Origin: an uncultured Pseudomonadota bacterium
Lineage (GTDB): Bacteria > Pseudomonadota > Alphaproteobacteria > Rs-D84
NCBI GenBank assembly: GCA_949296475.1
Contig: CASFOK010000010.1
Location: forward strand, 1-58,523
Direction: 5' to 3'
Length of the DNA: 58,523 bases
Part shown: piece after piece, positions 54,624-58,523 of the stretch
How positions within the stretch are numbered: position 1 is the first letter of the stretch
Layout: every line of letters starts with the position of its first letter
The notes under the pieces: generated by a model
What the model was told of the DNA's origin: nothing
Seen by the model: only the letters and a program-made list of their open reading frames with translations
The model's database searches: none
Made by a program: the position numbers and the translations under genes

Positions 54624-55387
54624 CATAAGCAAACACTCAGCAAGAAACAAACAATCTTTGCACACCCGGCGGCATTCTCACCAAGACAACGAAAATTACT
54701 TTTGCAAAAGACTTATCACGGATTTATGTATACCATACGCATTTGAAAAAAACCAACCTTATACAAATAATCAGCCAAGACATATTTATGGAACGCATGA
54801 AATTTATAAAATAGAAAAATAATAGTAAAAACAAACAATAATAAAAAGAATAGGGCACTTTTTTGCGCCCAAAAACGAATATATATAACTGCAACAAATA
54901 AACTTAATTGAACCACGAAGAAACAAGTCAGATCTTAAACGAAAATACAAAGTTGCACGTCCTTTTAAGTTTGCAACCAAAATTTGTGTTGTTATTGCGA
55001 CCAGATATTATATAAAAAGAGGGCGAACGGATTATAATTATACAGTCTTTGTTACACCAATAAAAACCGTATTCATACCACAACAACGATGAAATTTCCT
55101 GTATTCTCAAATAATTGTAATTTTTTTATTGATTATTTGTCTTCATCGTCGTACGCCTGTATACATTTTTATATTCGCTTGATTACAAACTCATGTTTCT
55201 TTCGTGACCACCAATGAAACGACATATGTTTTAGATATTTTTTAAATGCGTAAGTTTACACGAAACATTCTGTCCGTTTGTTTGAGAAGACATTTTTATC
55301 AACATTTCTGAAACAACCGATTTAATCATTAGAAATTTTCCAACAAGGAACACCGGCAAGCATACTTAACGCAAAAAATCAACTTAA
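54624..55387. other. 765-bp stretch without a recognisable gene
   Basis: AT-rich DNA between the rpiB terminator and tlyA. The only open frames are short, biased and without a ribosome-binding site. I see no tRNA, repeat array or strong hairpin. It may be a decayed gene or a regulatory spacer. Confidence 0.5.
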
Positions 55388-56101
55388 CTACTTATCTTTT
55401 TCAAGATACATTAAAAATTCTATATTTCCACTGCCACCACGAACAGGTGATTCAATCACGCCACCACATACTAAACCCAATTTCTCAAAACAATTTCTTA
55501 CTTTATCTACACTTTGCCTTCTGTCAGATTCGGATTTTATAACGCCGTTATTTTTTGCAGCGATTGCCCTGTCTACCTCAAACTGAGGCTTTACAAGCAA
55601 TATCATCTTATCCGCGCCCCAACGTAGCAAACTTTCTGCAATATTAACCAAAGAAATAAAAGAAACATCAACAACAACCAAATCAATCTTTTCAAAAGGT
55701 ACCAATTTACGAATATCGGTTTTTTCCAGTGCCACCACTTTCGGATTATTATACAATTCTGGCACCAATTGCCCCGTCCCAACATCAACAGCAATCACTT
55801 TTTTAGCACCACGCTTTAACAAAACTTCTGTGAAACCACCCGTGCTTGCCCCAACATCCAAACAAACATAACCATTTGGATTTACATTAAAAAATTCCAA
55901 AGCATGTTTCAACTTTAAACTGCCACGCCCAGAGACATACGGCAAGCTGATTCCAACCACATTGTCTTTATCCGAAACATTTTGGCTTGCCTTACTGGCG
56001 ACAACACCATTCACCCGCACCAAGCCACTTTTAATTCCCGCTACGGCTTTGGCACGGGTTGGATATATACCTCTATTAACCAATTCTTGATCAAGTCTCA
56101 T
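55388..56101 (-). CDS. tlyA: TlyA-family rRNA methyltransferase / haemolysin-like protein
   Basis: 237 residues. The N-terminal S4 RNA-binding domain (about 1-60, MRLDQELVNRGIYPTRAKAV) joins an FtsJ-like Rossmann domain with CLDVGASTGGFTEVLLKRGA (SAM loop, about 78-97), VDVSFISL and LVKPQFEV. TlyA proteins 2'-O-methylate rRNA and are named haemolysin for historical reasons. Length and order are normal. It is the last clear housekeeping gene before the unusual right end. No terminator is visible on either side. Confidence 0.93.
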   Translation of the reverse strand: MRLDQELVNRGIYPTRAKAVAGIKSGLVRVNGVVASKASQNVSDKDNVVGISLPYVSGRGSLKLKHALEFFNVNPNGYVCLDVGASTGGFTEVLLKRGAKKVIAVDVGTGQLVPELYNNPKVVALEKTDIRKLVPFEKIDLVVVDVSFISLVNIAESLLRWGADKMILLVKPQFEVDRAIAAKNNGVIKSESDRRQSVDKVRNCFEKLGLVCGGVIESPVRGGSGNIEFLMYLEKDK

Positions 56102-56421
56102 GTTTAATATTTTAACCTAAAAAACATCCATTTTCAAGGGCGCAAACAAAAACACTAAAAAAACAAAAACCATAAAAAAACTAAAAATATAAAAACTTTT
56201 CAAATTATTATTTTATTATATTAATAATACACTTTAATTGAATATGAGTTTAAATACACACCGTCTTTCAGACACACCATAAACCTCAAAAAATAAACCC
56301 TAAAACGACGCCAATCCCCAAAAACCGTAAAAACATACAGTTTCTAAACTGACACACAAAGTCAAAACAACCAAAATCTGCAAAACATACAAGAACACCT
56401 TTACAAAAAAAGAGAAAAAAT

Positions 56422-56463
56422 ACGCAAAAACGCCCGAAAATCCAGCTTTTTTTTAACAAAAAA
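56422..56463 (+). repeat. 42-bp direct repeat, copy 1
   Basis: Begins ACGCAAAAACGCCCG and ends TTTTAACAAAAAA. About 39 of 42 positions match the copy at 56565-56606, with 143 bp from start to start. Confidence 0.7.
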
Positions 56464-56564
56464 GTACTTATTTGCATCATGACGACAAAGCCACGGATAT
56501 CTAATGGTTACAAATACCTCCCAATAAACACTTTTTCTATCCCAAAACAAAAAGGACCAGAAAC

Positions 56565-56606
56565 ACGCAAAAACGCCCGGAAATCCGGCTTTTTTAACAA
56601 AAAAAA
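56565..56606 (+). repeat. 42-bp direct repeat, copy 2
   Basis: Second copy; the differences are G for A at two sites (in CCCGG and CCGGC) plus one T-run length change. Could be a dispersed genomic repeat or a duplication in a mobile element. Confidence 0.7.
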
Positions 56607-56894
56607 CAAGCAAAAACACAAAAATAGGGCGCAAGCACCACAAAACACACCAAAGAAAAGCGACCGCACCATAACCACACAAACAAAAAATCGTTGGATA
56701 AAAATTAAACCATTTTATATTTGTATAAACAAAATAATATTTTATGTATTAAATAAAAATTATTAATAAAAAAATAAATTAAAAACAAGCGCACCAATCA
56801 CAAAAAAATACTAATCAGACCACAAAAATAAAAAAAATAGAAAAAACATAAAAACACGCAAAACACCCCAAACACAACAACATAAGTATACATA

Positions 56895-57250
56895 ATAACG
56901 CGTTATGCGCAGCAGGCGGTTATGCGTAGCAGGTTGTTGTTGCGTTGTTCGTTTGCCAACCGCAAAGAAAGCAAACAACAACATAAGATATGTCTTAAAA
57001 CACAACCGGTCATTGCGTGTTGTAAGTGTTATATATGCGAGCCACGCGAGCATATATTACACGCACAAACAAAATGACGCAGGTTGTTGTGTTTTACACA
57101 TAGCGTTGTGTTGTTTGCGTGCGGTTGGCACGTGATACCACACAAAACAATCATTGGAGCATGCACGACAGTTTGCATGCGACCCGCAGCCCGCGGGCGG
57201 GCGTTGCGATTTTCTTTCTGCCGATTGTTATTGCCGCAGGCAATAACACA
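56895..57250 (+). other. Hairpin-dense intergenic region: candidate structured RNA or control region
   Basis: At least five stems occur in about 350 bp. A 12-bp stem with one bulged C: 56944-56956 / 56971-56982. A 13-bp stem with one mismatch: 57026-57038 / 57050-57062. CGTGC / GCACG: 57118-57132. GCATGCA / TGCATGC: 57159-57180. A perfect 9-bp stem GTTATTGCC / GGCAATAAC: 57227-57247. The 12-mer GCAGGTTGTTGT occurs twice (56929 and 57079). Composition is visibly richer in G and C than the flanks. No stem is followed by a T-run. It lies directly upstream of the four small genes. Confidence 0.5.
56902..56933 (+). repeat. Tandem 15-bp iteron-like repeat
   Basis: GTTATGCGCAGCAGG (56902-56916) and GTTATGCGTAGCAGG (56919-56933) differ at one base and are spaced 17 bp apart, so they fall near the same face of the helix. 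The perfect palindrome ATAACGCGTTAT (56895-56906) overlaps the first copy. Confidence 0.75.
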
Positions 57251-57279
57251 ATCAAACAACAAAACAGAAAGGAAAACAA

Positions 57280-57579
57280 ATGACAGACAGACAAATAATG
57301 GAAACAGAACACATTGTTTTTAAGTATTTTTCACACATTAAAATTGCAAAATATTTCTTAAAAAAAACAACACCCACAAGACATTTGAACGATTATGAAA
57401 TTTTAGATATTTCAACAATCTTGAATAATTGCAACTTATCACATTATGAACAACAAACAGTTATATTTTACGGTTATAAATTATGCCGCCCACCATACCG
57501 CGGCATACATCGTGACGCATGGAACAGCGCAATTAACACAATAAAAAACGAATTTATAAAAAGGGGCATAATATCATGA
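57280..57579 (+). CDS. Small protein of unknown function, gene 1 of a four-gene cluster
   Basis: 99 residues, beginning MTDRQIMETEHIVFKYFSHI. No signal peptide or membrane helix; mixed helical, basic (LKKTTPTRHLNDYEILDIS), with GYKLCRPPYRGIHRDAWN near the C-terminus. No family is recognised. The ATG at 57280 has AGAAAGGA 6 nt upstream, a strong site that supports translation. The stop overlaps the next start (ATGA). Size, packing and position next to unusual intergenic DNA suggest a phage or mobile-element gene. Confidence 0.62.
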   Translation: MTDRQIMETEHIVFKYFSHIKIAKYFLKKTTPTRHLNDYEILDISTILNNCNLSHYEQQTVIFYGYKLCRPPYRGIHRDAWNSAINTIKNEFIKRGIIS

Positions 57580-57908
57580 TTTTAGCCGAATTATTAGAAT
57601 CATTAAATCGTGTAAATGATTATACCAAATTGGGGCATATAATAAAAGACCCTGCAACATTTACACCAGAAAATGACAATGAATATCTTGCAAAATTAGC
57701 GTGGCAAAAATTCTTAAATAATTTTTTCCAAAACCGTTATAGCGCGTACATAACAGCAGACACAATTAAATCAATCATGGATGCAAGCGGTGAAATATAT
57801 AACCCCGAAAAATTAGAAAGATGTGCCGCATTTATACGAAACAAATTGAAACCCGCACAACTTATTACCGATAAATGGTTAGTGTATTTTGTGCGCAAAT
57901 TTAGATAA
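57576..57908 (+). CDS. Small protein of unknown function, gene 2 of the cluster
   Basis: 110 residues, beginning MILAELLESLNRVNDYTKLG. Largely helical and soluble, with a basic C-terminus (LVYFVRKFR). No catalytic or DNA-binding motif is recognised. The ATG overlaps the previous stop (ATGA) and AAGGGG lies 9 nt upstream. Composition is like its neighbours: A-rich on the coding strand. Confidence 0.6.
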   Translation: MILAELLESLNRVNDYTKLGHIIKDPATFTPENDNEYLAKLAWQKFLNNFFQNRYSAYITADTIKSIMDASGEIYNPEKLERCAAFIRNKLKPAQLITDKWLVYFVRKFR

Positions 57909-57931: not shown

Positions 57932-58219
57932 ATGATAAAAATGACACAAAAGATGCACAAAAAATCAATTAAAATGGCAATACGGATGTTTTGCGACCTT
58001 GGCGGCTATCAAATGGAACACAATCTTGGACTGCGCCGACACAGCCAACACAGACTTGTTTTTAGTGGCATTGATTTGTTAAAATTACAAAGTGAAATTT
58101 TAGAACTGCCAGACAGAGCATTAGAAGCAGCCAGTCAATACGGACACAATGAACCGTACAACCGTACAGATTTAGATGTTGCATTAACAATACTATCTGC
58201 TAAAATCGGCAAGATATGA
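57932..58219 (+). CDS. Small basic protein of unknown function, gene 3 of the cluster
   Basis: 95 residues. The N-terminus MIKMTQKMHKKSIKMAIRMF is very basic, followed by CDLGGYQMEHNLGLRRHSQH and a leucine-rich helix (LLKLQSEILELPDRALEA). It could bind nucleic acid, but no family is recognised. AAGGA lies 9 nt upstream of the ATG at 57932. The stop overlaps the next start (ATGA). Confidence 0.6.
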   Translation: MIKMTQKMHKKSIKMAIRMFCDLGGYQMEHNLGLRRHSQHRLVFSGIDLLKLQSEILELPDRALEAASQYGHNEPYNRTDLDVALTILSAKIGKI

Positions 58220-58470
58220 CACACAACGAACTATGCGATAAATACATAGAAATATCACAACAAATATCTGCCGCCCACACCCAACTGCGGGCGGCAGGTG
58301 ACATGCACAAAATACAACAAACCGCACAAACAGAACAAAACATCAAAGAAATACAAGAACACATTGCCGCATTACAAGAACAACGTGCAAAATTAGAAAA
58401 ATTATTAAACATAACCATTGCCGAGCCGCGGCAAAGCCGCAATACCATAAGCACAAAAGCCCAAGAATAG
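58216..58470 (+). CDS. Small coiled-coil protein, gene 4 of the cluster
   Basis: 84 residues. After MTHNELCDKYIEISQQISAA the chain is one long Gln/Glu/Ala-rich helix (about 10-70) with heptad-like spacing, so a coiled coil is likely. A polar tail ends in ISTKAQE. Coding near the end includes a GCGGC / GCCGC hairpin (58428-58440). It is coupled to gene 3 by ATGA. The cluster may continue beyond the window. Confidence 0.58.
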   Translation: MTHNELCDKYIEISQQISAAHTQLRAAGDMHKIQQTAQTEQNIKEIQEHIAALQEQRAKLEKLLNITIAEPRQSRNTISTKAQE

Positions 58471-58487
58471 GGCAACGTATTTTTTTA

Positions 58488-58523
58488 TTTATTTTATTTA
58501 TTTATAAATAAATAATATAAATA
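58488..58523. other. AT-only tract at the right edge
   Basis: The last ~35 bases are almost pure A and T and include a self-complementary stretch around TATTTATTTATAAATAAATA. This could be an easily melted site or a spacer; it is cut by the window edge. Confidence 0.4.

Follow-up and report, generated by a model that had tools for sequence, protein, structure and literature searches.

What is the hairpin-dense stretch of DNA that precedes a run of small genes of no known family at the end of a contig from an uncultured alphaproteobacterium? A sequence-only reading of the window (the whole stretch of 58,523 nucleotides analysed here) had placed it at 56895-57250 and had proposed a structured non-coding RNA of a mobile element, or a control region for replication, partition or a phage, with no matching family.

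The hairpin region and the chromosomal dif site

All the features listed in that reading are in the sequence. The palindrome ATAACGCGTTAT spans 12 bp at 56895-56906, the tandem 15-mers (GTTATGCGCAGCAGG at 56902 and GTTATGCGTAGCAGG at 56919) are spaced by 17 bp, the 12-mer GCAGGTTGTTGT occurs at 56929 and again at 57079, and the G+C content (45%) departs from that of both flanks (29% to the left, 35% to the right). The interval was real but slightly short at its bounds, since the feature extends from 56886 to the first gene at 57280. Folded as single-stranded DNA, 56884-57279 (396 nt) reached -85.5 kcal/mol on the plus strand and -86.5 kcal/mol on the minus strand (z of -5.3 and -6.1, respectively). 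None of 100 dinucleotide-preserving shuffles was equally stable, and the segment ranked first among 294 segments of the window. The dominant structure is a single long imperfect hairpin at 56954-57130, with outer arms of 26 nt that are 77% complementary and a self-complementarity of 72% across 177 bp. The stems noted previously are present, but this largest structure had been caught only in part.

A structured non-coding RNA or a riboswitch-like leader would suit the strong folding on both strands and the position immediately 5' of the genes. Yet the Rfam search, which had been proposed as a check, returned at gathering scores only tRNAs and RNase P across the window, and nothing in the hairpin region (the best sub-threshold match, COG2908 at 57059-57111, was disregarded, with 26.3 bits against a gathering score of 58.7). 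The fold is about equally stable on both strands, as inverted-repeat DNA would give, and the features at its edge, the palindrome and the tandem repeat, are accounted for as arms of XerC/XerD sites. The RNA is thus unsupported, and we regard it as very improbable. The hairpin region is a real and significant feature, and it is the attachment end of a mobile element, not an RNA. The other half of the proposal, a control region belonging to a phage or other mobile DNA, was borne out: the region is the attachment and leader end of an element integrated at dif.

Genomes of this genus have a conserved site, AAAAGGCGCATAATGTATATTATGTATAG(TTT), whose core, with up to three mismatches allowed, was detected in 130 of 141 genomes and almost always a single time per genome; a reversed control pattern gave 0 matches in the same search. 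The site lies between mscL/aroK and tlyA wherever these genes were in reach. We call it dif because it closely resembles the dif sequence of E. coli. In a genome available as a 1.0-Mb single contig (G104), it lies about 60-90 kb from the switch in GC skew, a position that is compatible with dif but only roughly at the switch. The genome of the window encodes XerD-like and XerC-like recombinases. A third tyrosine recombinase (354 aa, G000:C1:86199-86681, L157) is by score neither XerC nor XerD, and is likely a prophage or island integrase.

Only two sites with the XerC-N-XerD pattern were found in the genome of the window: dif itself, on contig C21, and a site at 56886-56910 (pattern match at 56887-56908) in the window, which by chance would be expected to hold 0.01 such sites. 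The latter has an odd 7-bp centre and includes most of the 12-bp palindrome. Judged by its sequence, this XerC/XerD site derives from the dif of the host. The alignment with a close relative (G131) covers 55328-56897 at 79% and ends inside this site, at the XerD boundary. Since homology stops there, whatever lies rightward of about 56897 has been inserted. These observations point to the right-hand attachment site and leader of an Xer-exploiting integrative element (IMEX) of about 2 kb, hereafter element B, inserted at the chromosomal dif; we give this reading a probability of about 0.85. The features of this end of the window are as follows.

55388-56101, minus strand: tlyA-like rRNA methyltransferase gene, which flanks dif on this side across the genus and was matched beside dif in many relatives
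56102-56885, no strand: native tlyA-dif intergenic DNA, outside the element (from the alignment to G131)
56886-56910, minus strand: putative right attachment site of element B, GCGCATAA (XerC arm)-CGCGTTA-TTATGTATAC (XerD arm, chromosomal), from the XerC-N-XerD pattern
56902-56933, no strand: two tandem XerC-arm-like 15-mers (GTTATGCGyAGCAGG), which in a modelled circular single strand pair with the opposite end of the element
56954-57130, no strand: long imperfect hairpin in the leader of element B, from folding and self-complementarity; putative single-strand origin or packaging structure
57159-57180, no strand: GCATGC...GCATGC hairpin of the leader, from folding
57178-57207, no strand: GC-rich hairpin of the leader, from folding; element A has a GC-rich run, GCGGGCGGGGCGGGG, at a comparable place
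57221-57256, no strand: leader hairpin directly before gene 1, from folding
57280-57579, plus strand: gene 1, 99 aa, of no known family, 34-42% identical to gene 1 of element A
57576-57908, plus strand: gene 2, 110 aa, of no known family, 52-53% identical to gene 2 of element A; helical model with pLDDT 69.5
57932-58219, plus strand: gene 3, 95 aa, of no known family, 62% identical to gene 3 of element A; model with pLDDT 70
58216-58470, plus strand: gene 4, 84 aa, coiled-coil-like by weak matches, with no counterpart in element A
58471-58523, plus strand: A/T-rich 3' end of element B up to the end of the contig; 58478-58523 shares homology with the 3' region of element A

The left part of the hairpin region is thus well supported, by its sequence pattern, as a putative attachment site with accessory XerC-like arms. 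For the long hairpin and the three smaller ones before gene 1, we propose, by analogy, a role as a single-strand origin or packaging structure. When the leader DNA was sought in relatives, as had also been suggested, only short pieces were recovered, and the ones located at dif in G020 and G027 turned out to be attachment sites; the search of a phage collection with the leader gave no match.

The surroundings of dif show further repeats. Two similar copies of ACGCAAAAACGCCCGRAAATCCRGCTTTTTT lie in the tlyA-dif intergenic DNA of the window (56421-56456 and 56566-56603), and similar pieces occupy the same place in relatives, possibly as a genus-wide repeat. In many genomes a short hairpin directly downstream of dif (L042, L063, L043, L044, L105:3830-3896 and others) repeats the XerD arm in inverted orientation (TATTATGTATAGTTTAAT...ATTAAACTATACATAATA); it may be an accessory feature native to these genomes or a scar left by earlier insertions. 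A solo XerCD site with the centre CGCGGTA lies about 600 bp from dif in G020 (L067:5707-5731), with no element genes, and is likely the remnant of an insertion like that of element B. A second pair of XerCD-like sites, on contig C15 of G152, was dropped because it lies inside long open reading frames, away from dif.

Gene content and spread of elements A and B

Searches of Pfam, PHROGs and NCBIfam with genes 1-4 gave only weak, coiled-coil-type or chance matches, and the structure models of genes 2 and 3 (pLDDT about 70) had no clear fold match. We found no recognisable integrase, capsid or Rep gene in the sequenced part of B or in the whole of element A. The two families by which an element would be assigned to the Microviridae, the Phage_F capsid and Rep, had no match in genes 1-4, and element B is not placed there. 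It does have the traits of an IMEX: it lies at the chromosomal dif, it has a dif-like attachment site with no integrase found, and the host encodes XerC and XerD. The earlier remark that no family matches needs qualifying: the site itself derives from dif, and elements that exploit Xer form a class already known.

Element B probably continues beyond the window. Contigs C10, which holds the window, and C21 are unjoined in the assembly. We infer that they adjoin because each stops on the side of dif where it would be expected, because their ends have a 16-bp A/T-rich match in common (which is not an exact end overlap), and because the 3' region of element A contains a homologue of 58478-58523. 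The rest of B, about 0.37 kb up to dif, would then be C21:31459-31829, for a total of about 2.0 kb, and the predicted gene order is mscL - A - dif - B - tlyA.

Element A is a three-gene element of 1.5 kb at the end of contig C21, beside the putative rest of B. It occurs at dif in four genomes (G000, G022, G087 and G131), always between aroK and tlyA. Clear copies of the element gene families were found in 4 genomes among those searched, weak matches in G125, G143, G010, G011, G029 and G032, and none outside the genus; genes 1-3 had no copy in the viral collection, and no circular or packaged form was encountered.

The copies of element A in G000 and G087 are 96.8% identical in nucleotide sequence, whereas aroK, prfA and tlyA of the same two genomes are 72%, 77% and 67% identical, with largely saturated synonymous sites. 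Such identity between species with flanking genes so diverged indicates that element A moves horizontally. In its genes dN is far below dS. From these comparisons, element A is a horizontally transferred, selected unit with genes under purifying selection. Recent transfer between hosts was found for element A; element B is single-copy.

The small size of A and B, together with the apparent solo attachment site left at dif in G020, could also be expected if both elements had shrunk from microvirus proviruses, or from other phages at dif, and were now domesticated and immobile. The recent spread of A across diverged hosts and the purifying selection on its genes argue against such relics, as does the lack of detectable similarity between genes 1-3 and microvirus families, and we find this origin improbable.

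Foldable attachment sites and two proposed modes of integration

At the left end of element A, the XerCD sites GCGCATAATGTGGCGACATTATGTTGA and TGAACATAATGTGCATTATGCGC lie in inverted orientation on either side of a short loop and fold to one dif-like duplex with an unpaired centre. The attachment hairpins of this type have z values of -4.8 to -8.7 (six sequences). In an alignment of seven sequences (the copies of element A in four species, two microviruses that are proviral and one from IMG/VR), 98% of the cells were paired and both partners had changed in four pairs; slid controls gave 0-1 such pairs. The relatedness of the sequences inflates counts of this kind. The loop stem, GTTGC/GCAAC or TTTAC/GTAAA, is a clear compensatory set. 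Compensatory changes, another of the checks proposed from the sequence, were found in the hairpin that serves element A and the microviruses as the equivalent attachment structure; the 56954-57130 hairpin is present in a single copy, with no homologue for such a comparison. The hairpin pattern of element A matched 6 of the 141 genomes, five of which carry element A or a microvirus at dif; the match in G107 looks like chance.

The end of element B on the dif side, on contig C21, also has two inverted sites, about 80 nt apart, and folds with a z of -5.2. In the modelled circular single strand of B, the attachment stem is lengthened by the tandem 15-mers of the window (56902-56933), which explains this repeat. 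The pattern of B was matched by 14 IMG/VR contigs.

The insertions fall into two arrangements. Element A and the microviruses of G123 and G101 match dif beside the XerC arm (TGT) and leave the intact dif on the tlyA side. Element B and the microviruses of G027 and G124 have the intact dif on the mscL side, and the far site, clear in B, in G027 and in the G020 remnant, matches beside the XerD arm. From the sequence of the junctions, these two modes would fit an exchange at the XerC boundary for the type of A and at the XerD boundary for the type of B.

This architecture is close to that of CTXphi, an IMEX whose attP has inverted sites about 90 bp apart and in which homology beside the XerC site decides integration (PMC4246890). 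Like A and B, CTXphi resides at dif, and its attP(+) has two inverted dif-like sites that fold to one duplex; use of the host XerC/XerD route by A and B is suggested by their sequence. Compared with attP(+), the site centres measure about 10 and 6 bp in A and about 7 and 7 bp in B. The match to dif beside the XerC arm is shared by CTXphi and element A, whereas B matches on the XerD side, with its intact dif on the opposite flank. A further difference is that CTXphi makes up a complete filamentous phage; A and B hold 3-4 small genes of no known family in 1.5-2 kb.

Double-stranded cassettes mobilised by Xer offer another comparison. The pdif modules of Acinetobacter plasmids are, like A and B, short gene modules between XerC/XerD sites, but are mainly plasmid-borne, whereas the genes described here lie at a chromosomal dif. 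Such modules use plain double-stranded sites, not folded paired ones. If A and B were of this kind, they would have no single-stranded stage and their hairpins would be incidental or regulatory. The homology of B to dif beside the XerD arm makes a XerD-first route, as described for TLCphi, conceivable (PMC4246890). Nevertheless, the single-stranded attP of CTXphi has just this architecture of inverted paired sites with unpaired centres and, here, stems that covary, and a purely double-stranded cassette appears rather unlikely.

Our preferred reading is that B is a minimal Xer-exploiting element, probably with a single-stranded form in transit. The element would excise as a circle, and in the single-stranded circle the two inverted XerCD sites would fold to one dif-like duplex with an unpaired centre, which XerC and XerD are predicted to join to dif. 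The long hairpin of the leader may serve as a single-strand origin or packaging signal. Having no recognisable Rep or capsid of its own, the element probably has to be copied and transferred by the host or by a helper. The IMEX class has been described before, but relative to the limited literature searched A and B appear to be new in their size, in their gene content and in an attachment like that of microviruses. The Charybdis elements (PMC12324425) are about 4.6 kb, marine and of an archaeal host, and were set apart on that basis.

Microviruses at the same site

Four sister genomes (G027, G124, G123 and G101) have microviruses with a Phage_F capsid and Rep at the same dif. In G124 two identical-looking copies lie there in tandem (L104:2964-12365). 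In G027 a second element begins after the provirus at dif (L070:5820-10830, L030:1-86), and both contig ends share a terminal sequence in inverted orientation (CGGCGACGTCTATATGCCAT...), which suggests either an inverted terminal repeat or the insertion of two elements. A 5.6-kb microvirus contig from beyond this set of genomes, IMGVR_UViG_3300013902_000158 (L110:2199-2261), has the same attachment hairpin, likewise foldable, and its host probably has a similar dif.

Microvirus proviruses at dif were described previously as enterogokushoviruses of Enterobacteria (PMC7062461) and as BMVs of Bacteroidetes (PMC3091885), of which BMV4-6 have an extra dif-like sequence near one end (PMC3091885). Like A and B, they target dif, lack an integrase, and have an intact dif on one side and a variant site on the other. 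Unlike them, A and B have no capsid, pilot or Rep genes. A and B share the dif target and the attachment architecture of the microviruses but none of their genes.

As a special case of the preferred reading, A and B might be satellites of microviruses, i.e., helper-dependent single-stranded DNAs that a microvirus copies with its Rep and packages in its capsid, while the genes of A and B would steer helper or host. The use of the same dif, the same two attachment modes and the same foldable hairpin as the microvirus proviruses of the genus and the IMG/VR microvirus argues in this direction, as do the near-confinement of the hairpin of element A to genomes with A or a microvirus at dif, the lack of a capsid or Rep in A and B, and the lack of a Phage_F protein in the genome of the window. 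There is also a precedent at dif, in satellites of filamentous phages such as TLCphi (PMC4246890). TLCphi, a satellite phage at the dif of V. cholerae, has no virion genes, like A and B, and B may be a XerD-first integrant as TLCphi is. It differs by its own replication module, its filamentous-phage helpers and its degenerate XerD site, whereas in A and B no replication gene could be recognised and the neighbouring phages are microviruses.

Other observations count against satellites. An exact-word comparison of A and B with the microviruses revealed no convincing common sequence of at least 12 bases outside the attachment sites, and thus no shared replication or packaging signal. The genome of the window has no helper capsid gene, A and B were absent from the viral contigs searched, and such an attachment site could be used by any single-stranded-DNA element. 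A satellite relation is therefore attractive but unproven, and we advance it only as a tentative possibility. The length of element A (1,516 bp, L023:9968-11483) is close to one third of that of the G123 microvirus (about 4.53 kb, L105:3873-8406), a ratio that could matter if multimers were packaged.

If A and B were such satellites, they would be single-stranded-DNA parasites of 1.5-2 kb that enter dif through a folded attP by means of the host XerC/XerD and borrow the Rep and capsid of microviruses, with up to four new protein families. Phage satellites are known for filamentous and tailed phages, and microviruses are among the most abundant phage families of the gut. A limited search of the open-access literature found no description of satellites of microviruses, and phage parasitism would then extend to an abundant family of gut phages. 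The folded attachment sites make the integration of microvirus-like elements as single strands, in the manner of CTXphi, directly testable, and dif emerges as a recurrent spot of integration in a lineage of Alphaproteobacteria with small genomes.
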